Shown: piece after piece, positions 180-59,587 of the stretch
Position numbering within the stretch: position 1 is the first letter of the stretch
Layout: every line of letters begins with the position of its first letter
Assembly: GCA_903906315.1 (NCBI GenBank)
Contig: CAIVJW010000219.1
Span: forward strand, 1 to 64,000
DNA: 64,000 bases
Reading direction: 5' to 3'
Source of the DNA: an uncultured delta proteobacterium
Lineage (GTDB): Bacteria > Myxococcota_A > Polyangia > Polyangiales > Polyangiaceae
The notes under the pieces: generated by a model
What the model saw: the letters and a program-made list of their open reading frames with translations, nothing else
Told to the model about the DNA's origin: nothing
Databases searched by the model: none
Program-made: the position numbers and the translations under genes

Positions 180-1949
180 ATGCGCCGTCGCCTGCTCCTG
201 GGCCTCGTTCCCTGCCTCCCGCTCTTCGCGCTCGCCGCGTCGTGCGCAGGCGGGGGCGACGAGCCGGTTTCCATCGGGCTCGTGCTGCGAGCGCCCGCGG
301 GGCTGCTCGCGCAGGCGACGGCCGTCAAGCTGAGCGTGTTCGACGCGAGCAAGGCGAAGTGCCTGCCCACGGGCCACGTGAGCGCGATCCCCGCCGGCGC
401 GCAGAGCTTCGCGCTGCAGAAGACGGGCTGCGCCGCAGGCGTGGGCTGGTGCAAGGAGATCGCCCTCGAGAAGGACGGCAGCAGCAAGATGTTCGCCGTC
501 CTCGCCAGCAACGCGGCGGGCACGCTCGCCGAGGGCTGCGCGGTCGCGACGATCAACCAGGACCCGCTGCAGGTCGACATCAAGGTGGAGCGCTACCTGT
601 CCCCTGCGTGCTGCGGCAACGGCAAGCTCGAGCCGACCGAGCAGTGCGACCCGGGAGCCTCGAACGACGGGGCGTGCCCCGGCATGACGGCGGACGCGGT
701 GTGCGCCGCCGACTGCACCTCCGTCGAGATCCCCGTCGATCGCCAGCCGAGCGACAAGCCGCCGGCCGCAGGGACCAAGTCGCAGCTCGCGATGGCGTTC
801 TGCCCGGGCGCCGCCGACAAGAAGCTCCAGAACGGGCTGCGCGCGGTCTTCGCCGACACGGCTGCCGGCACGAGCGGCGGCGGGGACGTCGCGATCCGCG
901 CGTTCGATCAGGGGCTGTTTCCGCTGAACGATCTCTCGCTCATCCTTCCGGAGCCGCACCCCGTGCCGCTGCTTTGCTCGGACGCGAAGGCGACGAAGGG
1001 ATCGGTCAACGCCCAGAAGGCGCCGTCGATCACGCCCATCGGGACCGACCTCGTCGCGGTCGTCTACCTGAGCGACGAGCTCACGGCCACGCACGACGAC
1101 GTGTTCATGAGCGTCCAGGGGATCGATGGTTGCGCGGAGAAGGCGCCCGTCCGCGTGAACGGCACCTCCGGCGCGTCGTCGCCCGACGTCGCGGCCGGGG
1201 GCCAGCCCGGCACGGGGCTCGTGGTGTGGACGCGCGCGGGGCAGGTGGTCGGGCGACTGATCGCAAGAACGACGGACCCCTCCGGAACGGCGACGCTGAC
1301 GCCGCAAGGCCCCGGCGACGTCGCGATCGCGGCGAACGGCGCGCAGGCTCACGTCGCGGGCTCGGCGAGCGGCTGGGTCGTCGTCTATCAGGGCGCTGGT
1401 AGCGGCGACGGGGACGGCATCTTCGTGCGCATGGTGTCGTCGGGCGGCATCGTGGGCCCGGAGGTGCGCGTCAACACGGTGACCGACGGTTTGCAGGAGC
1501 AGCCCGACGTCGCCATGCTCGGCGACGGGCGGTTCGTCATCGTGTGGCGGAGCGCAGGCGACGTCTGGGTCCAGCGGTTCGACGCCGCGGGCGCGGCGGC
1601 CCCGAGCGATCAGGACGCGCCGCTCAACACCGTCGTCGAGGGCGAACAGGCGCACCCGGTCGTGGCGGCGTCGGGCGACCTCGGCGCCTTCTACGCCGCC
1701 GCGTGGGAGACCGATCGGTCGGGCAACGGGGCGATCGCGGCGCGATTCGTCGGGGGCGACGCCGGCTTCGGGTTCAACAGCGTCTCGGGGCAGAACGACG
1801 AGTTCGAAGCGTCGGTTCCCGGCGTGAACGGCGCGCGGAAGCTGCCCGCCGTTGCGGTGGGCGGTGGCGGCTTCGTGGCGGTCGGATGGCAGGACGAGTC
1901 CGCCGCGCAGCCCGGGGTCGTGGTGCGACGCTTCCCGCTGCCGCTGTAA
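180..1949 (+). CDS. Secreted Cys-rich lipoprotein with DUF4215-like motif
   Basis: A 589-residue predicted lipoprotein. The N-terminus has an Arg-rich start, a hydrophobic stretch and a lipobox ending LAASC near residue 22, so it should be exported and lipidated. Around residues 140-170 lies a Cys-rich segment starting CCGNGKLEPTEQCDPG, the pattern of the DUF4215/Myxococcus Cys-rich repeat. The remaining 400 residues contain repeated short strands with Val-Val-W and DVA motifs, suggestive of a beta-propeller-like surface domain; this is inference. ATG 180 is preferred over GTG 177, which abuts it. No catalytic motif was seen. It is probably a cell-surface protein of unknown role. Confidence 0.75.
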   Translation: MRRRLLLGLVPCLPLFALAASCAGGGDEPVSIGLVLRAPAGLLAQATAVKLSVFDASKAKCLPTGHVSAIPAGAQSFALQKTGCAAGVGWCKEIALEKDGSSKMFAVLASNAAGTLAEGCAVATINQDPLQVDIKVERYLSPACCGNGKLEPTEQCDPGASNDGACPGMTADAVCAADCTSVEIPVDRQPSDKPPAAGTKSQLAMAFCPGAADKKLQNGLRAVFADTAAGTSGGGDVAIRAFDQGLFPLNDLSLILPEPHPVPLLCSDAKATKGSVNAQKAPSITPIGTDLVAVVYLSDELTATHDDVFMSVQGIDGCAEKAPVRVNGTSGASSPDVAAGGQPGTGLVVWTRAGQVVGRLIARTTDPSGTATLTPQGPGDVAIAANGAQAHVAGSASGWVVVYQGAGSGDGDGIFVRMVSSGGIVGPEVRVNTVTDGLQEQPDVAMLGDGRFVIVWRSAGDVWVQRFDAAGAAAPSDQDAPLNTVVEGEQAHPVVAASGDLGAFYAAAWETDRSGNGAIAARFVGGDAGFGFNSVSGQNDEFEASVPGVNGARKLPAVAVGGGGFVAVGWQDESAAQPGVVVRRFPLPL

Positions 1950-2096
1950 CCGACGGGGAGCACGCCCCGGCGCCCCGCCGAAGGGGCTTCGGGCGGCTTC
2001 GCTCCGCGCAGCGCTTCGTCGGTCACGACCGCATCGGACGGCGCTGGCGACCGGCGGACCGCGGGAGGCGCGACCGGCCGCGCCATCGCTCGAGCG

Positions 2097-2558
2097 TCAC
2101 GTTCCCGGGGGCGGTGTCGGCTCGTCGCGGAGGTAGGCGATCGAGTGGATGGCGTCGACCAGCAGCTCGCGGTCCTCGATCGCGAGATCATCGAAGCGGA
2201 TCCCCATGCCCGGGTTCGGCGTCTCGCGGACCGCGTCGATCCGGTTGACCCACTGCACGGTGCCGCGCACGACGAAGGGATCGCAGCCCTCGCGGGGGGC
2301 GAAGCGCAGCGTGAGCGCGGTGCCGACCGGCAACGGCTCGATCGTCCGCACGAAGATACCAAGCTCGGAGATGTTCGTGATGGCCGCGTAGAGGAACGTG
2401 TCCTCCGTCGCGCAGTCGACCGACCAGGTGACCTCGACGCGCTCGACGAAGCGGCGGCTCGAGCCTGGGGCGGAGGTGGGCGCGTCGTCCGCGCGATAGC
2501 CGCTCGGCAAGCTGCCGTCCGTGGCTCGGCCGGGAACGTCGCGTCCACGCGCGGTCAT
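2097..2558 (-). CDS. PilZ-domain protein
   Basis: A 153-residue protein whose core matches PilZ domains of the type abundant in myxobacteria. It has an Arg-rich entry (RRFVERVEVTW), a strand ending ITNISELGIFVRT that corresponds to the D/NxSxxG c-di-GMP motif, then the LPVGTALTLRF and GTVQWVN strands and a C-terminal helix. The NISELG form keeps Asn, Ser and Gly, so nucleotide binding is possible. The Pro/Ala-rich N-terminus looks disordered. ATG 2558 is chosen; an in-frame GTG at 2582 would add eight residues, but an AGGAG sequence lies between the two. It is convergent with the preceding lipoprotein gene. Its partner is unknown. Confidence 0.8.
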   Translation of the reverse strand: MTARGRDVPGRATDGSLPSGYRADDAPTSAPGSSRRFVERVEVTWSVDCATEDTFLYAAITNISELGIFVRTIEPLPVGTALTLRFAPREGCDPFVVRGTVQWVNRIDAVRETPNPGMGIRFDDLAIEDRELLVDAIHSIAYLRDEPTPPPGT

Positions 2559-2657
2559 GCGGACGGAGCTAACTCCTTTCACGACGGGCGTCGAGCGCGG
2601 GCCCTCTACGCTGGCGAATCGCCGCGGAGGCCCGGAACGGCCCCTCGGCGAGCGACG

Positions 2658-5225
2658 TCAGCGGACGCGGAGCATGCCGCCCATCACTCGGTTCTCGTGG
2701 TTCTCTCCGCGCGACACGCGCAGGCGCGTCTCGCCGCTGAAGAAGCCGAAGTAGACCCCGTAGTCGCCGGGGGTGAAGTTGGGCTCGAGCTGGAACTCGT
2801 GGTCGTCGACGACGACGTCGCCGACCTGCCAGTGGCCCATCGCGTACTTGCCCTCGAGCACCGAGTGGTCGCCGTTGTAGCGGCGCTGGAAGCCGTCGAT
2901 GTGCAGGAACGCCTTCCAGCTCCCGGTGACCGGCTTCACCACGCGGTAGTACGTGCGCATCTGGTAGGCGGTGAGGGGCACGACGCTGTCGACGACGCGG
3001 CCGGACTTGTCGGCGACGTCCCAGCCGAGGACCTCGAGCTGGTCCTCGAACGCCGCGTCGACCTGGTGCGTGAGCTGCGGGGCTTCGTCGAGCACGATCG
3101 ATGCGAGGGGGTTCTGGTTCCTGGCGTCGCCGAGCTGGCTCGAGACGAGCAAGATCTGGCTCGATCGGCCATCGAGGACGGGCACGTTGCCGAGGTGCTT
3201 GCGGCGGTGCTGCGAGTTCAAGCGCGGGAGGTCCTCGGCCCGGACGACGAGCCACCGGCGTTCGCCGGGGCGCTCGAGCAGCCAGTCGCTCGCGCGCTCG
3301 GGATCGGTGAACGAGGCGACTTCGGCGCCGTAGTAGTAGGCGGCGGCGCGCGTTCGCACGCCGAGGAGCGCGAGGGGCTCGCTGCCCGTCTTGAGGCGCG
3401 CGAAGGACTCGAAGACCTCTTTCGGCGAGAGCTGCGCGGCGAGCGCCGGGTGGTACCACGCGGCGAGCGTGCCGCCGCCGAGCAGCGCCGCCGCGAGCGT
3501 GAACGCGGCGCGGGGCAGCCGCGTGGCGCCCACGAGGGCGCGGAAGCCGTCGCGCACGAGCCAGAGCAGGACGGGCGCGACGGCGAGGGCGAGCGGCATC
3601 GCCCACCAGGCGTTGAGAGCGACGCCGTTCAGCTCGCGCGGGAGCTTCTCGACGGGCGCCCAGCCGACGCGACGGCCGACGAGCAGCATCGCGCCGAGGC
3701 CCACGAACGCGGCCTCCACGACGATCAGCACGAAGAGCAGGTTGCCCGACGCGATCTGCCCGAGCTCACGCGCACCCTCGAGGTAGTCCTCGCGGCGAGC
3801 CGCGAGCCACGCGCGGGCGCGATCGCGGATGCCACCGGCGTCGTCCGCAGGCTGCGCCTCGAACCACGAGAAGGCCGTCACGCCGGCGAACGAGACCAGG
3901 ACCAGCTGCATCGCCGTCTTGGCGGGCCCCTCGAACGACTTCGGGAACGTCGGCTTGTCGACCGAGAATACGGCGAAGGCCTTCTCCGGGAGCTGAACCA
4001 GATCGCGGTAGAGCACGAAGGCGAGCACCGCGCAGCCGAGGGCGAGCGCGCGGGACGGGGGCGCGCCTCGCTCTAGGTCGAGGACGGCGAGGGCCGCGAC
4101 GGCGGCGAGGAGACCGACGCCACAGAAGGGAACGGCGCCCGCGTAGGGGCCGAGCAGGGCGTGGACGCCGAAGGCGACGCCCGCGCCGACCACGAGCGCG
4201 ACGCGCAGCGCGGCCTCTCGATCGCGTGCCGAGGGAGGCGCCTCGACGGGCGCGCGGAGGAGCCGACCGAACGCGAAGGGCAGGAACGCGCTCCACGGGA
4301 AGAGCGCGTGCCCGAGCTGGCGGATCGTCAGGTCGAACGTCGCCTCGGTCGGGACCTTCTTCAGCAGCGCGACGCCGAGCGCGCGCGGCAGCGGCGCGTC
4401 GGGCGCGGTGCGGAACAGCACGCGCAGGCCGAGCGCGACGGCCACGACGCCGACCGCGAGCGCGAGACCGCCGACGGCATCGCGCACCACCGCGCCGGAC
4501 GGCGCCTGGTCGCGAGGCGCGTCGGCGAGCCGCAGCACGCCCCACGCGATGCCGACCGCGAGCGCCGGCGTCGCGACGCCCAGCAAGAGGCCGCGCGACA
4601 GGTAGCCGATGACGAGGCCGAGGAGGCCGATCGCGAGCCAAAGCGCGCGCGGTCCGAGCCCGACCGCGTCGTCGCCGGAGTCGTCGAACGCGGCGCCCGC
4701 GAGGCCGGCGAACGCCATCGTGACGCCCGCCATCGTCACGGCATCGCCGAGCATCGTGCGCGCTTGCATGAAGTAGAGCGGCATCGTGACGAGGGCGATC
4801 ACGCCGTAGAGGCCCGCCCGGCGATCGACGAGCCGCGCGAGCAACGCGTAAAGCGCGGCGGCGCCCAAGAAGGCGAAGACGGCGAGCGGCAGGCGGCCGG
4901 TCCAGTCGCGCAGCCCGAGGAGCCGGAACGAGAGCGCCATCGCGGTGAACGGCAGCTCGCCCATCTTGAGGTCGGTGAGCGTCGGCAGCGAGTTGACCGC
5001 GCCGGGCAGCTCGAGCCCACCGGCGCCGAGCTTCTGGACCGCGATGCGCCGGGCGAGGTCGGCCGTGTCGAGCTCGTACGGGTCCCACACGCCGCTCTTC
5101 GGGAGGAACGGGAACAGCACGAGCGCCGCGATCGCGAGCGCGAGCGCGCCGACCCAGCGCCCCCCCGCGACCTGCGCCGGCGCCTCGCTGCCCGCGCCGG
5201 AGCGCCCCTCGTCGTCGGCTGCCAT
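2658..5225 (-). CDS. GT39/ArnT-like integral membrane glycosyltransferase
   Basis: An 855-residue polytopic membrane protein. After a cytoplasmic tail and first membrane helix, residues 45-60 read VWDPYELDTADLARRIA, the acidic first periplasmic loop typical of lipid-linked sugar glycosyltransferases of the PMT/ArnT (GT39/GT83) group. About a dozen hydrophobic segments follow to residue 620, then a soluble periplasmic domain of about 230 residues with WLVV and beta-rich segments. It is expected to move a sugar from a polyprenyl-phosphate donor to an envelope acceptor; the acceptor is unknown. Start ATG 5225 is chosen because the first membrane segment follows shortly after; the open frame continues upstream as low-complexity shadow. 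It is divergent from asd. Confidence 0.82.
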   Translation of the reverse strand: MAADDEGRSGAGSEAPAQVAGGRWVGALALAIAALVLFPFLPKSGVWDPYELDTADLARRIAVQKLGAGGLELPGAVNSLPTLTDLKMGELPFTAMALSFRLLGLRDWTGRLPLAVFAFLGAAALYALLARLVDRRAGLYGVIALVTMPLYFMQARTMLGDAVTMAGVTMAFAGLAGAAFDDSGDDAVGLGPRALWLAIGLLGLVIGYLSRGLLLGVATPALAVGIAWGVLRLADAPRDQAPSGAVVRDAVGGLALAVGVVAVALGLRVLFRTAPDAPLPRALGVALLKKVPTEATFDLTIRQLGHALFPWSAFLPFAFGRLLRAPVEAPPSARDREAALRVALVVGAGVAFGVHALLGPYAGAVPFCGVGLLAAVAALAVLDLERGAPPSRALALGCAVLAFVLYRDLVQLPEKAFAVFSVDKPTFPKSFEGPAKTAMQLVLVSFAGVTAFSWFEAQPADDAGGIRDRARAWLAARREDYLEGARELGQIASGNLLFVLIVVEAAFVGLGAMLLVGRRVGWAPVEKLPRELNGVALNAWWAMPLALAVAPVLLWLVRDGFRALVGATRLPRAAFTLAAALLGGGTLAAWYHPALAAQLSPKEVFESFARLKTGSEPLALLGVRTRAAAYYYGAEVASFTDPERASDWLLERPGERRWLVVRAEDLPRLNSQHRRKHLGNVPVLDGRSSQILLVSSQLGDARNQNPLASIVLDEAPQLTHQVDAAFEDQLEVLGWDVADKSGRVVDSVVPLTAYQMRTYYRVVKPVTGSWKAFLHIDGFQRRYNGDHSVLEGKYAMGHWQVGDVVVDDHEFQLEPNFTPGDYGVYFGFFSGETRLRVSRGENHENRVMGGMLRVR

Positions 5226-53177: not shown

Positions 53178-55019
53178 ATGACCATCGGCCGGAGACGAAA
53201 AGCCCTCATTTCTCCGGTCGAATCGATCCGAGCGCTGATCGCGATCGGCGCCCTCGCGGCCGCGACCGAGGCCGGCTGCGGGTCGACGATGACGACCACG
53301 TCCGCCGACGAGGGAGCCGGCGTCGGCGGCTACGACGGCAGCGCGTGCTCGGGCAGCCGCACGCGCTGCAGCGCCGCCTGCGTCGACCTCGCGAAGGACC
53401 ACGACAACTGCGGCGACTGCGGCCAGGCGTGCAAGGCAGGCGAGGCCTGCTCGGGCGGGGCGTGCGCCGTCTCGTGCGGCGGCGGCACGCTCGTTTGCGC
53501 CGACGGGTGCGTCGACGCGCTCCACGACCCGGCCCACTGCGGCGCGTGCGACAAGGCCTGCGGCGAGGGCGAGGTCTGCTCGCAAGGGTCCTGCGCGTTC
53601 ACCTGCGGCGGCGGCACGACCAAGTGCTCGGGGCCGTCGGGCGCGCTCTGCGTCGACCTCCTCCACGACCCGCACAGCTGCGGCGCGTGCGGCGCGGCCT
53701 GCGCGGCGGGCGAGGTCTGCGACGCGGGCGCGTGCGGCCTCTCCTGCGGCGGCGGCACGACGAAGTGCGGCGCGGCCTGCGTCGACCTCGCGTCGGACCC
53801 GGGCAACTGCGGGGCCTGCGGCACGGTCTGCGACGCGGGCGCCGGGCAGGTGTGCTCGGGCGCGACCTGCTCGGTCACCTGCGGCCCGGGCACGACGCTC
53901 TGCGGACCGGCGTGCATCGACCCGATGGTCGACCCCGGCAACTGCGGCGCGTGCGGCAAGGCCTGCGGCAAGGGGTCGGCGTGCGCGGGGGGCGCGTGCC
54001 TGCCGGCGTGCACCGGCGGCGCCGTGCTCTGCGGCGGATCCTGCAAGGACGTCGCGAACGACCCGAAGAACTGCGGCGGCTGCGGCGTCGCGTGCGCCGC
54101 CGGGGAGGTCTGCAGCGCGGCGACGTGCGGCGTCGTCTGCGGCGGCGGCACGACGAAATGCGGGGACGCCTGCGTCGCGCTCGGCAACGACCCGAAGAAC
54201 TGCGGCGCGTGCGGCGCCGCCTGCGACGCGGGCTACGCCTGCACGAACGGCGCGTGCGTGCTCGTGTGCGGCCTCGGCACCACCAACTGCGGCGGCGCGT
54301 GCGTCGACCTCCTCAACGACCCGACCCAGTGCGGTGCGTGCGGCGTGACCTGCCCGGCCGGCCAGGTCTGCAGCGCGGGGTCGTGCCAGCTCGTCTGCGG
54401 CGCCGGCACCGTGGCCTGCGGCGGGTCGTGCGTGAGCGTCGCCGACGACCCGCAGAACTGCGGCGCGTGCGGCGCGGCCTGCGCCGCCGGCGACGCCTGC
54501 GTCAGCGGCCAGTGCAAGGCGCTCGCGGCGTACTGGGCGGCCGGGGTGCAGACGGACGTGCCCGTCGCCAAGCTCGCCGGCTGGGCGCTCTGCCACCAGG
54601 ACACCTACGGCGCGGCCGGCACCTCGATTGGCAATCTCCTCGCGGGCTGCGACAAGGCGAAGATCCTCCTCGCGTGTCGCCCGACCGGCGCGGGCACGCT
54701 CACCGTGCTGGCGATGGCGCCCCGATCCGACGTCACCTTCGACACGGGCACCGACGACACCCCCCACGACGCGAACGGCGTCGGCTGGTACTTCTCGACC
54801 GACTGGTCCTGGGGCTTCGCGCCGCAGGGCGACGCCGTGACGCGCAGCTCGTGCGACACGACCGCGTCGAGCTTCGACGGCTTCGCCGGCGCCCACAAGG
54901 ATCAGCGCCTCTGCTGGCACACCGGCGGATCCTCGCTCGCGGTCGGCTGGCGCTGCGGCGCGACGGACAGCCTCAATGGCGACGTCGGCTGGGAGCGGCT
55001 GGTCTACCACTCGGATTGA
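53178..55019 (+). CDS. Exported protein with nine Cys-rich tandem repeats and a Trp-rich C-domain
   Basis: A 613-residue protein. The N-terminus (RALIAIGALAAATEAGC) is a signal peptide with a lipobox-like EAGC near residue 34. Residues 57-450 are nine repeats of about 43 residues, each with eight to ten cysteines in the pattern CGGGTTKCG..CVDL..DPxNCGACG..C..G..C..G.C, like a row of disulfide-bonded knots. Residues 465-613 form a separate domain with LAGWALCHQDTY and GWYFSTDWSWGFA, Trp/Tyr-rich and possibly carbohydrate-binding. It is probably a rod-like surface protein. ATG 53178. Its repeat unit is close to DUF4215-unrelated Cys-rich modules common in myxobacteria. Confidence 0.82.
   Translation: MTIGRRRKALISPVESIRALIAIGALAAATEAGCGSTMTTTSADEGAGVGGYDGSACSGSRTRCSAACVDLAKDHDNCGDCGQACKAGEACSGGACAVSCGGGTLVCADGCVDALHDPAHCGACDKACGEGEVCSQGSCAFTCGGGTTKCSGPSGALCVDLLHDPHSCGACGAACAAGEVCDAGACGLSCGGGTTKCGAACVDLASDPGNCGACGTVCDAGAGQVCSGATCSVTCGPGTTLCGPACIDPMVDPGNCGACGKACGKGSACAGGACLPACTGGAVLCGGSCKDVANDPKNCGGCGVACAAGEVCSAATCGVVCGGGTTKCGDACVALGNDPKNCGACGAACDAGYACTNGACVLVCGLGTTNCGGACVDLLNDPTQCGACGVTCPAGQVCSAGSCQLVCGAGTVACGGSCVSVADDPQNCGACGAACAAGDACVSGQCKALAAYWAAGVQTDVPVAKLAGWALCHQDTYGAAGTSIGNLLAGCDKAKILLACRPTGAGTLTVLAMAPRSDVTFDTGTDDTPHDANGVGWYFSTDWSWGFAPQGDAVTRSSCDTTASSFDGFAGAHKDQRLCWHTGGSSLAVGWRCGATDSLNGDVGWERLVYHSD
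53343..54528 (+). repeat. Nine tandem Cys-rich protein repeats (about 129 bp each)
   Basis: Nine in-frame units of about 129 bases, each encoding the CGGGTxxC...CVDL...NCGACG...C module. Nucleotide similarity is high between adjacent units, with repeated CAACTGCGGCGCGTGCGGC-like stretches, so recombination could change the copy number. Confidence 0.85.
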
Positions 55020-55134: not shown

Positions 55135-56613
55135 ATGCGCATCTGCATCCTGTCCTCCTCCTACCAGCACAGCACCGCTCCGTTTGCCGATCTCGACCCG
55201 CTGCCCGACCCGGCCCGCTACGCCCCCGATCACGACTGGGTCCATGAGCCGCTCCACAAGGCCACCTCGATTCCGCGCGTCCGCGCGCTCTCCCACCAGG
55301 GCTTCGACGTCTTCCTGAACCTGTGCGACGGCGCCTGGGACGAGGACCGCGCGGGCATCGAAGTGCCGCAGACGCTCGAGCGCCTCGGGCAGGCCTTCAC
55401 CGGCGCCGGCGCCTCGTTCTACGAGCCGAGCCGCGACGTGATGAAGCGAGTGTGCCACTACGCGGGCATCGAGACCCCGGGCTTCCTGTTCGCCGATCGC
55501 GCCGCCGACGCCGATCGCGCCGCCGACACGCTCCGATTCCCCATGATCGTGAAGCACCCGTCGAGCTACAACAGCGTCGGCATGCGCAGGGACGCCCGGT
55601 GCGAGACGCCCGCCGCGCTCCGCGAGCTCGTCCTGCGCAACGTCTCGGCGTACGGCGGCGCCCTCGTCGAGGAGTTCATCGAAGGCCGCGAGTTCACCGT
55701 CCTCGCGGCCGAGCCCGCCCCGGGCGAGCCCGAGCCGCGCGCGTACACGCCAGTCGAGTTCCTCTTCCCGCCCGGCGAGACGTTCAAGCACTTCGACCTC
55801 AAGTGGGTCGACTACCAGCGGATGTCGACCGAGCCCGTCGCCGACGAGGGCCTCGCCCGCCGCCTGCGCGAGGACTCGCGGCGCTTCTTCGCGGCGCTCG
55901 GCGGCACGGGCTACGGCCGCTGCGATCTGCGCATGGACGCGAGCGGGCGCCTCTTCATGCTCGAGATCAACCCCAACTGCTCGATCTTCTACCCGCCCGA
56001 CGCCTTCGGCAGCGCGGACCTCATCCTCGCGAGATCCCCGGGCAGACACCGGGGCTTCCTCGACCACCTCCTCGACTGCGCGCTGCGGCGGCGCGACGCG
56101 GCGCGGCCGACCACCGGAGTCCGGTACGACCCCGCACGCGGGTACGGCCTCGTCGCGCTCACCGCGCTGCCGGCGGGGGCCGTCGTCCAGGCAGGCGAGG
56201 AGCGCGCCCATCACCTCGTCACTCGTCGTCACGTCGACCGGCGCTGGGACGCCCAGAAGCAGCGCTGGTTCCGCCAGTACGCCTGGCCGCTCACCGACGA
56301 GGTCCACGCGATGTGGTCCGACCGCCCCGAGGACTGGCAGCCCATCAACCACGCCTGCGACCCGAGCTGCTGGCTCGACGGCCTCGCGCTCGTCACGCGC
56401 CGACCCGTCGCCGCCGGCGAGGCCCTCACAGTCGACTACGCCACGTTCTGCGGACCGGACACGGAGCCGTTCCCCTGCGACTGCCAGGCTCCGAGCTGCC
56501 GCGGCGTGATCCGCGGCAGCGACCACCTCTCCCCGGCGCTGGCCCCCTACGGCGATCACGTGAGCGACTACGTCCGACGCGCGCGGGCGGCGGCGGGGCT
56601 CGGCGGCGCGTGA
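55135..56613 (+). CDS. ATP-grasp ligase fused to a SET methyltransferase domain
   Basis: A 492-residue bifunctional protein. Residues 1-320 are a D-Ala-D-Ala-ligase-like ATP-grasp domain: NLCDGA (62-67), the ATP-lysine region MIVKHP (Lys140), VEEFIEGREFT (178-187) and RCDLRMDASG with LEINPN (Asp264, Glu277, Asn279, Asn281) for ATP and Mg2+. Residues 328-465 are a SET domain: GYGLVALTALPAG, INHACDPS (404-411), GEALTVDY (428-435) and a post-SET cluster Cys448-x-Cys450-x4-Cys455. An ATP-driven amide ligase and an AdoMet-dependent methyltransferase are therefore joined in one chain. ATG 55135 is chosen. The product is unknown; the next SET gene overlaps it by four bases. Confidence 0.9.
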   Translation: MRICILSSSYQHSTAPFADLDPLPDPARYAPDHDWVHEPLHKATSIPRVRALSHQGFDVFLNLCDGAWDEDRAGIEVPQTLERLGQAFTGAGASFYEPSRDVMKRVCHYAGIETPGFLFADRAADADRAADTLRFPMIVKHPSSYNSVGMRRDARCETPAALRELVLRNVSAYGGALVEEFIEGREFTVLAAEPAPGEPEPRAYTPVEFLFPPGETFKHFDLKWVDYQRMSTEPVADEGLARRLREDSRRFFAALGGTGYGRCDLRMDASGRLFMLEINPNCSIFYPPDAFGSADLILARSPGRHRGFLDHLLDCALRRRDAARPTTGVRYDPARGYGLVALTALPAGAVVQAGEERAHHLVTRRHVDRRWDAQKQRWFRQYAWPLTDEVHAMWSDRPEDWQPINHACDPSCWLDGLALVTRRPVAAGEALTVDYATFCGPDTEPFPCDCQAPSCRGVIRGSDHLSPALAPYGDHVSDYVRRARAAAGLGGA

Positions 56614-57182
56614 CGTCCGGCGAGGTCGGCCTCTCCCTGTCCGACGATCGCTTCGGGGTCCTCGCCGTCGGTCCGGACCACCGCCGCCTCTTCGTCCGCG
56701 TGGCCGTGGCCCGCGGCGAGGTGCTCGCGCCCTTCCGCGTGGCAGTTCGGGTCGGCGCGCCGCACCGCCACACGCTGCAGATAGCCGATCACGATCACGG
56801 GATCCTCGCGCCGCCGGAGCTCCGCTTCGTCGATCACCATTGCAGCCCGAGCGCCTTCTTCGACGTCGCCCTGCGCCAGTTGATTGCCCTGGTCGACCTC
56901 GCGCCGGGCGCGCCGGTCACGGCGTTCTACCCGGCTACCGAGTGGGCCATGGCCGAGCGCTTCGAGTGCCGCTGCGGCGCCCCGGGCTGCCTCGGCCTCG
57001 TCGGCGGCGCCTCGGAGCTTGCCCCGGACGTCCTCGCGCGCCACCGCCTGAGCCCCCACGTGGCGCGCCGGCTCGCCGCGCGGCTGAGCTCCACGGCTGT
57101 GACCGCGGCGACGGAGTCCGCCGAGGCGTGCGGCAAGGCCGACGAGAGCCCGGCGAACCGGGTGGAGGATCCCATCGGGTGA
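56610..57182 (+). CDS. Stand-alone SET-domain protein
   Basis: A 190-residue SET-domain protein. Motifs are FVDHHCSPS (73-81, in place of the usual NHxCxPN), GAPVTAFYPATEW (catalytic-Tyr candidate Tyr107) and the post-SET cluster Cys120-x-Cys122-x4-Cys127 in FECRCGAPGCLG. The N-terminal strand FGVLAVGPDHRRLFVRVAVARG replaces the usual SET-N half. GTG 56610 overlaps the ATP-grasp-SET stop (GTGA), so the two proteins are made together. Possible substrates are the product of the ligases or the ligases themselves; this is inference. The substitution of Asn by Asp/His in the motif may change activity. Confidence 0.8.
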   Translation: MTSGEVGLSLSDDRFGVLAVGPDHRRLFVRVAVARGEVLAPFRVAVRVGAPHRHTLQIADHDHGILAPPELRFVDHHCSPSAFFDVALRQLIALVDLAPGAPVTAFYPATEWAMAERFECRCGAPGCLGLVGGASELAPDVLARHRLSPHVARRLAARLSSTAVTAATESAEACGKADESPANRVEDPIG

Positions 57183-57329
57183 CGCGATCGGCGCGCGATC
57201 GCCCGGAAGGCTGTGCCCGCTCCCGCGCCATGCGGCCAGGGCGATCCGCAGCGAGCCTTTCGCCGGCCTTTCGTGGCCGCCGCGATCACGCCCGCACGCT
57301 CCACCCGCCGAGAACCCCCGGCAGCGGCG

Positions 57330-58499
57330 CTACAGCGGTCGCGCGGCGAGCTCCAGGCTGAGCTGGGCGGGCCTGGCCGGCGCCGAGGCGCGCGGTCGCC
57401 CGCGCCGCTGCGAGGGCCGCGCCGGCGCCTCGGCCGGGCCACCGCGGCGGCCGCGCCCATGGTCGAGGATGGCGCGGATCATCGTCGCGAACGGGATCCC
57501 CGAGAGTCGACAGATGTTGCCCGTGGACGAGTCGGCCGCCGTCCCGAGGCCGCAGTTCGCGTTCACCTCGAGGACGAGGAGCTCGCCGTCCTCGGCCTCG
57601 CGGAGGTCGACGCGCGCGTATCCATTGCCCCCGAGCGCCCGATAGGCCTTCTCGGCCAGCCGCGCGGCACGGCCCGCGGTCGCGCGGTCCGGTCGCCCGT
57701 AGAGGAAGAAGGGCTCGTCGCCGAGCTCCGGAATGCGCTGATCCGGAGAGTAGGTATCGTACACCTCGAAATGGAGGAACCGCTGCTCGGGCGGCAGCCG
57801 GGCGTTGTACGCCCGCTCGACCGGCGGAAAGGCCACCGGGGCGTGCGCCGGCCCGACGACCAGGACGGTGAGCTCGCGACCGTCGAGGAACGGCTCGACG
57901 AAGATGGCGCCGTGCGCGACGGACGGGTCGTGGCCCCCGCCCCGCAGCCACTCCACCTGCGCGCGGAGCTCGGCCGGCGTCTCCACCCTCGACCGGCAGT
58001 TGATTCCCAGGCTCGCGGCCGAGATCTCGGGCTTGACCATCAGCGGGAAGCCGATCGACTCCGCGTCGGCGACGTCCGCCGAGCCGCGAAGCTCGAGCCA
58101 CGCGGCGGTCGGGATCCGGCCGCGGCGCATCGCGCGCTTCATCCGCAGCTTCGAGGTCGAAAGCTCGTAGAACGCGGCGTCCGCGCCGGTGAAGTCGCGC
58201 CCCTGCGCCTCGAGCGCCCGCACCACCGAGAGGCCCGGGAACCCGTCGCCGTCGTCCTCGGCGCCGTCGCAGAGGTTCAGGAACAAAGTGCCCGGAGGGT
58301 GCGCCTCGAGCCGCCGCACGACGTGCCTCGGGTGCGCGGGGTCGAGCACGACGGGCTCCCAGACCCAGGGGAGGCCGAGGTCACGGAACCAGCCGCCGAC
58401 CTCCGCGCGAAACGCGGCCGAGCCGTACGAGGGGCTCTCGGGCCTGCCATCGATGAGCCGATAGGGCGCGATCACGACGACGGGGTCGGCCGGGATCAC
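57330..58499 (-). CDS. D-Ala-D-Ala ligase-like ATP-grasp enzyme (second of pair)
   Basis: A 389-residue ATP-grasp enzyme. Motifs: NLCDGA (75-80), VKPEISAASLGI with Lys156, FVEPFLDGRELT with Glu202, and ARVDLREAEDGELLVLEVNAN with Asp298, Glu311, Asn313 and Asn315 (shown here in parts). It lacks the large inserts of true Ddl but keeps its full metal/ATP apparatus, so it should join a carboxylate to an amine or hydroxyl group through an acyl phosphate. The last 35 residues are Arg/Pro/Ala-rich. GTG 58499 overlaps the stop of the preceding ligase (GTGA). It converges with the SET gene. Confidence 0.88.
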   Translation of the reverse strand: MIPADPVVVIAPYRLIDGRPESPSYGSAAFRAEVGGWFRDLGLPWVWEPVVLDPAHPRHVVRRLEAHPPGTLFLNLCDGAEDDGDGFPGLSVVRALEAQGRDFTGADAAFYELSTSKLRMKRAMRRGRIPTAAWLELRGSADVADAESIGFPLMVKPEISAASLGINCRSRVETPAELRAQVEWLRGGGHDPSVAHGAIFVEPFLDGRELTVLVVGPAHAPVAFPPVERAYNARLPPEQRFLHFEVYDTYSPDQRIPELGDEPFFLYGRPDRATAGRAARLAEKAYRALGGNGYARVDLREAEDGELLVLEVNANCGLGTAADSSTGNICRLSGIPFATMIRAILDHGRGRRGGPAEAPARPSQRRGRPRASAPARPAQLSLELAARPL

Positions 58500-59587
58500 G
58501 AGACCCCCGCGCGCGCGCGGCGCCGCGCCGTGGCGAGGATGCGGTCGATGACGGCGCCCATCGTGTCCACGTGGGTGCGCAGGATCTGGCCGGTGTAGCT
58601 CCCGCCGTCGAACGAGAGCCCGCAGTTCGCGTTCACCTCGAGCACGAAGAGCTCGCCTGTCGCCGCGTCCTCGCGCAGGTCGACGCGGGCGTAGCCGGTG
58701 CCGGACACCGCCCGGAAGGCGCCCGCCGCGATCGGCTCGATCCGACGCTGCACCTCGGGCGACACCTTGCCAATCGCGCAGTACTCCGAGCCGGCGGGAG
58801 GCGGCGACTCCTCGTCGAACTCCTCGAGGTAGCGCTCGTGCGTGAGGAAGCGCTCCTCGGGCGGGAGCGCCGGGTGGAACAGGCGCTCGGCGGCGGTGAA
58901 CACCTCGGGGGCGCCCGGGCGATCGAAGACGAACGCGGTGTACTCGGGGCCGGCGACGAACCGCTCGACGAACCAGCCGCCGGCGCGGCCCGGGTGGCGC
59001 TGATCGAGCCTCCGCCACTCGGCATCCAGCGCGTCGACGCCGTCCACGCGCGAGCGGAGCCCGATCCCGAGGCTGGCCGCGGAGACGTCGGGCTTGATGA
59101 TCAGCGGGAAGCCGAGGCGACCGCAGTGTTCGAGGACCTCGCGCGGATCGCCCTCGAGCGCGCGGAACGCCGCCGTCGGAATGCCCGCGTCGACGAACCG
59201 GGCCTTCATCGCGAGCTTCGAGGTCGACAGTCGGTAGAACCCCCCGTCGGCGCCCGTGAACGCGACGCCGGCCGCCTCGAGCGCGAGGACGACCGAGAGC
59301 CCGGGGATCCCGTCGTCCTCGGCGCCGTCGCAGAGGTTGAACGCAATGGTGTCGCGCGCCCGGGCGAGCTCGCCGAGGCGCGCGACGACGCTCGGGATGC
59401 GCGTCTCGGCGGGACCTTCGAGGCAGACCGGCTGCCAGACCCAGTCGCACCCGATCGGCTCGAACCACTCCGGCACCTCCGCGCGGAACGCGGGGTAGTC
59501 GTACTCGGAGCTCGAGAGGCGGTCGTCCTTCCAGGCGTACGGGACGAGGACGACGACGAGCGGTCGTCCGCCGTGAGACGTGGGCAC
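58496..59587 (-). CDS. D-Ala-D-Ala ligase-like ATP-grasp enzyme (first of pair)
   Basis: A 363-residue ATP-grasp enzyme, paralogous to its neighbour. Motifs: NLCDGA (84-89), PLIIKPDVSAASLGI with Lys165, WFVERFVAG with Glu208, and RVDLRED...LFVLEVNANCG with Asp303, Glu317, Asn319 and Asn321. GTG 59587 has GAGG nine bases upstream and is followed by a frame in step with the preceding motif, so the longer upstream frame is rejected. It leads a two-gene operon opposite the ATP-grasp-SET pair. Substrates are unknown; a dipeptide-like product or a peptide chain is plausible. Confidence 0.88.
   Translation of the reverse strand: MPTSHGGRPLVVVLVPYAWKDDRLSSSEYDYPAFRAEVPEWFEPIGCDWVWQPVCLEGPAETRIPSVVARLGELARARDTIAFNLCDGAEDDGIPGLSVVLALEAAGVAFTGADGGFYRLSTSKLAMKARFVDAGIPTAAFRALEGDPREVLEHCGRLGFPLIIKPDVSAASLGIGLRSRVDGVDALDAEWRRLDQRHPGRAGGWFVERFVAGPEYTAFVFDRPGAPEVFTAAERLFHPALPPEERFLTHERYLEEFDEESPPPAGSEYCAIGKVSPEVQRRIEPIAAGAFRAVSGTGYARVDLREDAATGELFVLEVNANCGLSFDGGSYTGQILRTHVDTMGAVIDRILATARRRARAGVS

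Follow-up and report, generated by a model that had tools for sequence, protein, structure and literature searches.

A 4.5-kb gene cluster in the 64,000-nucleotide stretch of DNA analysed here (the window; contig CAIVJW010000219.1 of an uncultured Polyangiaceae bacterium) brings together three ATP-grasp ligases and two SET methyltransferase domains, and on balance it appears to encode a short pathway to a small methylated amino-acid-derived conjugate, such as a dipeptide or short peptide, the product being perhaps a sulfonium. P1 is an ATP-grasp ligase fused to a SET domain, P2 is a stand-alone SET protein, and P3 and P4 are further ATP-grasp ligases. The core of the system is the ATP-grasp-SET enzyme, often accompanied by a second SET domain; ligases of the P3/P4 type occur only in some lineages. 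The known parts are a D-Ala-D-Ala ligase (Ddl) fold and a SET domain resembling that of BurB, while the bifunctional enzyme and its set of partners were not known before.

The ligase part of P1 is Ddl-like and complete. Pfam detected Dala_Dala_lig_C (4.8e-13) and SET (1.5e-7, above the cutoff of PF00856) in the protein, and the AlphaFold2 model was confident (predicted local distance difference test, pLDDT, 92.7; predicted template-modelling score 0.88). In this predicted model, the ligase part superposes on D-Ala-D-Ala ligases with Z 30.7 and a root-mean-square deviation (rmsd) of 2.5 over 297 residues. The ATP, Mg and transition-state residues, common to DdlA, DdlB and the VanA-type enzymes, are intact: K104, K140, E180, E186, K223, R262 and D264 are invariant across 46 homologues, and E277 and N279 are nearly so. 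A preliminary description, made from the sequence alone, had called these residues complete in all three ligases, which holds for P1 by alignment and for P3 and P4 by eye only. The NLCDGA motif that it had considered unusual is indeed shared by P1, P3 and P4, but this group of ligases ordinarily carries NLCDG or NLCEG, which is also found in some unrelated tandem ligases and is not a signature of the cluster.

P2 searched alone matched nothing in Pfam or NCBIfam; in the PDB it matched BurB at 2.9e-14. BurB is a SET enzyme that makes S-methylmethionine from free methionine (PMC12542666, PMC7496086). The AlphaFold2 model of P2 (pLDDT 91.0) has a SET fold and was best superposed on BurB (Z 14.8, 131 residues, rmsd 3.0), followed by the histone methyltransferase ASH1L (Z 11.6). 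A profile of P2-type SET domains matched BurB at 6.6e-30 as compared with 9.4e-13 for the best-matching histone enzyme. By sequence, profile and predicted fold, BurB is the nearest characterised relative of P2. Like P2, BurB (also termed methionine S-methyltransferase, MSMT; PDB 9l4t, 9l4v) is a small single-domain SET protein with a post-SET CxCx4C and the Q-x5-H and Y...E positions. Nine residues are invariant in 32 P2-type homologues (Q57, H63, H76, C78, Y107, E111, C120, C122 and C127), and Q57, H63, Y107 and E111 equal the BurB residues at the aligned positions. The pocket differs from that of BurB in having W112 for D129 (W112 in 28 of the 32 rows) and E116 for R133, positions that may not be family-defining.

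The SET domain of P1 is ambiguous, as judged from sequence profiles, between BurB and MLL. Its post-SET cysteines (C448, C450, C455), H406 and C408 are invariant in the 46 homologues; Y435 is nearly invariant, with histidine in three rows and phenylalanine in one. The DYAT motif containing this tyrosine reads DHAT in three myxobacterial fusions (loci L024, L098 and L099), and the phenylalanine occurs at L172. Both SET domains of the cluster thus keep the CxCx4C reported in the preliminary description, and both show NHxCxP and the SET tyrosine. The premise of that description that SET enzymes methylate lysine nitrogen is not supported, given the kinship of P2 with a free-methionine S-methylating enzyme. 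It had named unrelated degraded paralogues as a finding that would refute it; the catalytic residues are conserved in the homologues, and P1 and P2 are, as judged from these alignments, strongly constrained and not degraded.

The possibility was considered that the cluster modifies proteins, the ATP-grasp enzymes adding amino acids as tubulin tyrosine ligases (TTL) and RimK do, and the SET domains methylating lysines, so that a tag results. The match of the P1 SET domain to MLL as well as to BurB is in keeping with this idea, as is the eukaryotic protein TTLL12, which joins a SET-like and a TTL (ATP-grasp-like) domain (PMC3520985). However, TTLL12 differs from P1 in that its SET-like domain is N-terminal and its ligase of the TTL type; it is without critical residues and catalytically inactive, and its SET-like domain is related to SETD3/4/6, not to BurB (PMC3520985). 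Moreover, the ligase part of P1 is Ddl-like rather than TTL- or RimK-like, and P2 is BurB-like. BurB acts by proximity and desolvation and its Y124F mutant retains more than 60% of the activity (PMC12542666, PMC7496086); the natural histidine or phenylalanine at the Y435 position in 4 of 46 homologues would fit better with a BurB-type mechanism than with that of a lysine methyltransferase. Protein modification is therefore considered unlikely. Of the "modified peptide-like product or tag" proposed in the preliminary description, the ligation and methylation system stands, and a protein tag is possible and not favoured.

The kinship of P2 with BurB also lends itself to a different reading, in which P2 is a methionine S-methyltransferase for the synthesis of an osmolyte of the dimethylsulfoniopropionate (DMSP) type and S-methylmethionine or DMSP is a building block for the ligases. 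BurB works with the decarboxylase BurI (PMC12542666, PMC7496086), and at locus L110 a stand-alone SET gene adjoins a pyridoxal phosphate (PLP) decarboxylase. The partners of BurB in DMSP synthesis are a decarboxylase, a transaminase and a dehydrogenase, with no ATP-grasp ligase; none of the three recurs at ATP-grasp-SET loci, and the pocket differences of P2 further argue against this pathway, which we regard as quite unlikely. In the L110 locus itself (1731-4336), the BurB-like SET gene lies directly 3' of a diaminopimelate/ornithine-type PLP decarboxylase, with a 288-amino-acid protein of no assigned family downstream; the pair is possibly a pathway for decarboxylation of an S-methyl amino acid.

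The bifunctional enzyme of this probable small-molecule conjugate pathway is widely distributed. Among 290 genomes of the same class as the source, six further genomes have full-length relatives of P1 (the SET part of L101 is divergent) and six more have ligase relatives without SET. One scan of GTDB contigs yielded 80 loci, 64 of which are ATP-grasp-SET fusions in 13 named phyla: Acidobacteriota, Gemmatimonadota, Myxococcota, Chlorobiota, Bacteroidota, Planctomycetota, Pseudomonadota, Actinomycetota, Chloroflexota, Rhodothermota, Methylomirabilota, Zixibacteria and Verrucomicrobiota. The carriers include the isolates Chlorobium ferrooxidans DSM 13031 and Hyalangium versicolor H56D21. Over much of their length the proteins share 47-63% identity with P1 in most phyla and 32-42% in a Bacteroidota-type branch, and the scatter of fusions over phyla at such identities suggests spread by horizontal transfer. 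Carriage on plasmids was rejected, since plasmid matches were confined to the ligase domain at less than 35% identity and none spanned the fusion.

Of the 64 fusion loci, 32 have an additional SET domain less than 3 kb away, compared with 1 of 15 loci of SET-less ligases, that one hit being weak (Fisher p = 0.0027, indicative only because related loci are partly non-independent). In 11 loci (L137, L138, L139, L142, L143, L148, L150, L164, L166, L182 and L184) the ATP-grasp-SET-SET arrangement is a single open reading frame (ORF) of about 640-810 residues; elsewhere, as at the source locus, a separate SET gene adjoins the fusion. Bacteroidota operons have the order SET, ATP-grasp, ATP-grasp-SET, and the same operon minus the first SET is found in Gemmatimonadota, Verrucomicrobiota and one Vicinamibacterales bin. 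In Chlorobiaceae the order is SET, ATP-grasp-SET, MsbA-like ABC exporter and a third SET, the first three also occurring in one Methylococcales bin. The Sandaracinaceae bin G257 (L100/L188) carries all five domains of the source locus in a different order. Since it recurs across phyla, the arrangement is not due to chance. Recurrent adjacency in distant phyla was the test named in the preliminary description, which would have been contradicted by genes that never co-occur elsewhere; co-occurrence was found. The compact ligation-plus-methylation system is accordingly upheld, and the full five-domain set is not obligatory. At two of the triple-fusion loci (L164:6708-9920 and L166:6711-9920) there is a tandem duplication, a copy with a weakly matching SET domain preceding the intact ATP-grasp-SET-SET gene.

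Phylogenetic analysis separated the two kinds of SET domain. The ligase-fused SETs form one group with a Shimodaira-Hasegawa-like approximate likelihood ratio test (SH-aLRT) value of 99. P2 falls in a second group (SH-aLRT 99) with the triple-fusion second SETs and with the neighbouring SETs that are separate proteins in Chlorobi and Bacteroidota; it adjoins the second SET of triple fusion L139 (SH-aLRT 90). The P1-P2 pair of the source therefore represents the triple fusion in two-gene form.

P3 and P4 are paralogues, 47% identical, whose assignment to the Ddl type is from Pfam only (Dala_Dala_lig_C, 5.1e-17 for P3 and 1.2e-11 for P4). Against the curated Ddl cutoffs of 245.65 (TIGR01205) and 243 (NF002378), P1 scored 60 and 66 bits, P3 65 and 74, and P4 59 and 60, so that the ligases of the cluster span 59-74 bits against cutoffs near 245. 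They were rejected as housekeeping Ddl paralogues on this ground, and the source genome has two true Ddl elsewhere, which likewise shows that the cluster ligases do not fill the housekeeping role. In the ligase tree, P1-type ligases (SH-aLRT 100), P3/P4-type ligases (99) and ordinary myxobacterial tandem ligases are all separate; an ordinary tandem pair was therefore rejected as the identity of P3 and P4. The other 14 sampled members of the P3/P4 clade all adjoin ATP-grasp-SET fusions, in Bacteroidota, Gemmatimonadota, Acidobacteriota, Verrucomicrobiota and another myxobacterium. Strong relatives of P4 occur in 3 of the 290 class genomes: the source, G257 (within the cluster) and G207 (at a contig edge). 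The P1 branch of the source is usually without such ligases, and the P3/P4 clade otherwise adjoins the other fusion branch; association of the same partner clade with two fusion lineages argues for a functional link. Tandem Ddl-like ATP-grasp pairs without SET are common in the class (L026, L029-L034, L036, L043, L127, L129, L130, L134 and L135) and fall in separate clades.

The Ddl fold, and the presence of VanA/VanB-type ligases in the same superfamily, raised the question of a cell-wall variant in which peptidoglycan precursors receive an altered D-Ala-D-X terminus from the ligases. Scores far under every curated Ddl/Van cutoff and the lack of recurrent VanH/VanX-like partners at the loci make this most improbable. 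To our knowledge, a SET methyltransferase has no role in such a system.

An operonic MsbA-like ABC exporter is present at seven Chlorobiaceae loci and at L151, and a more distant ABC gene lies alongside the planctomycete locus L142. Adjacent MsbA/HlyB-like exporters could also serve a pathway like those of ribosomally synthesized and post-translationally modified peptides, with ATP-grasp and SET enzymes modifying a ribosomal precursor that the ABC transporter exports. In 14 upstream regions from Chlorobi, Methylococcales, Bacteroidota and Planctomycetota, however, no small ORF is shared (peptides encoded elsewhere may escape this comparison), the ligase resembles Ddl and not the graspetide enzymes, and Pfam detected no peptidase domain in the exporter. 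A pathway of this kind is considered very unlikely. The remaining neighbours (decarboxylase, aldo-keto reductase, short-chain dehydrogenase/reductase, PALP) are sporadic; as no other enzyme recurs, the module is suggested to draw on common metabolites. An anti-phage defence system was also rejected, with 0 PADLOC families matched.

Two other transporter arrangements were observed. In Bacteroidota, an ABC_membrane_3 (PF13748) half-transporter without an ATPase domain follows the ATP-grasp-SET gene (L187:9530-10420, with equivalents in L186, L190, L193 and L216). In several class genomes (family f18), stand-alone BurB-like SETs lie next to an MsbA-like ABC exporter with no ligase nearby (L113, L114, L116, L118 and L119); the L118 exporter has a C-terminal cyclic-nucleotide-binding domain.

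In the proposed pathway to a methylated conjugate, each ATP-grasp enzyme would act like D-Ala-D-Ala ligase, converting a carboxylate and ATP to an acyl phosphate that an amine then captures to give an amide. P1 would join one amino-acid pair, and P3 and P4 would contribute further residues or produce variants. The SET domains would transfer a methyl group from S-adenosylmethionine to a heteroatom of these building blocks or of the product. P2 is probably BurB-like, S-methylating a free amino acid by proximity and desolvation, with methionine as the best guess; the fused SET domain would act on the substrate or product of the P1 ligase. In the Chlorobi and the Methylococcales metagenome-assembled genome, the MsbA-like exporter would export the product.

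Several points weigh against this interpretation. Whereas gene structure, intact catalytic residues, folds, homology and the conserved adjacency and fusion are observed, we infer the substrates, S- as opposed to N-methylation, the order of steps, the product and its export, and a protein substrate may also be compatible with the shared adjacency. The amine-binding N-terminal loop of P1-type ligases is unlike that of Ddl, so that donor and acceptor are not readable from the sequence. Methionine is only the best guess for P2, and may not hold, because of the two pocket differences from BurB. The other half of the 64 fusions is without a second SET nearby, and no exporter adjoins the cluster at the source locus. 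Finally, the majority of loci come from metagenome-assembled genomes, and single phylum assignments may consequently be wrong.

SET domains are regarded almost wholly as protein-lysine methyltransferases, BurB/MSMT being the exception. Compact clusters in which Ddl-like ATP-grasp enzymes form amides on small molecules and a tailoring methyltransferase takes part are familiar from mycosporine-like amino acid and bacilysin-type pathways. We know of no SET-domain methyltransferase in those pathways, and in contrast to them no further core biosynthetic gene recurs at ATP-grasp-SET loci. No description of a bacterial ATP-grasp and SET combination was found among 5.39 million open-access papers (subscription literature was mostly outside the scope), TTLL12 being the sole relevant protein; this agrees with the earlier statement that no characterised pathway has this gene set. 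A conserved ATP-grasp-SET enzyme in 13 phyla, isolates included, suggests widespread small-molecule SET chemistry, and the enzyme is a self-contained, directly testable ligase-methyltransferase. We put forward, tentatively, the broader view that ATP-grasp-SET(-SET) proteins may be an unrecognised bifunctional class, horizontally spread in at least 13 phyla, that makes and exports new methylated, perhaps sulfonium, non-ribosomal peptides, and that SET may serve bacteria generally as a fold for methylating small molecules.

The features of the source locus are collected in the table. Translation confirmed the four genes at the positions first described, all intact and without internal stops, along with both GTGA overlaps and the convergence of the P1/P2 pair (+) with the P4/P3 pair (-).

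Table. Features of the ATP-grasp/SET cluster (positions in the window).
Feature	Position	Strand	Remarks
P1, ATP-grasp ligase (aa 1-320) fused to SET methyltransferase domain (aa 321-492)	55135..56613	+	492 aa
NLCDG motif of P1	55318..55332	+	NLC[DE]G in relatives
SET domain of P1	56095..56610	+	NHxCDP, DYATF, post-SET CxCx4C (cysteines 56476-56499)
P2, stand-alone BurB-like SET methyltransferase	56610..57182	+	190 aa; fused to P1 in relatives, e.g. L138, L139, L143
P2 start/P1 stop overlap	56610..56613	+	GTGA
Post-SET CxCx4C of P2	56967..56990	+	
P3, ATP-grasp ligase, cluster-linked clade	57330..58499	-	
P4, ATP-grasp ligase, same clade as P3	58496..59587	-	47% identical to P3
P3 start/P4 stop overlap	58496..58499	-	GTGA

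No structured RNA was matched by Rfam in the window. The flanks of the cluster are unrelated to it: downstream are one protein without a family match and one matrixin-like protein, and 5' of P1 is a STIG1-like repeat protein, with a UvrD-type helicase further upstream. The STIG1-like gene (53178-55019), just upstream of P1, encodes a cysteine-rich protein with seven such repeats, a plant-type family name in a bacterial genome.

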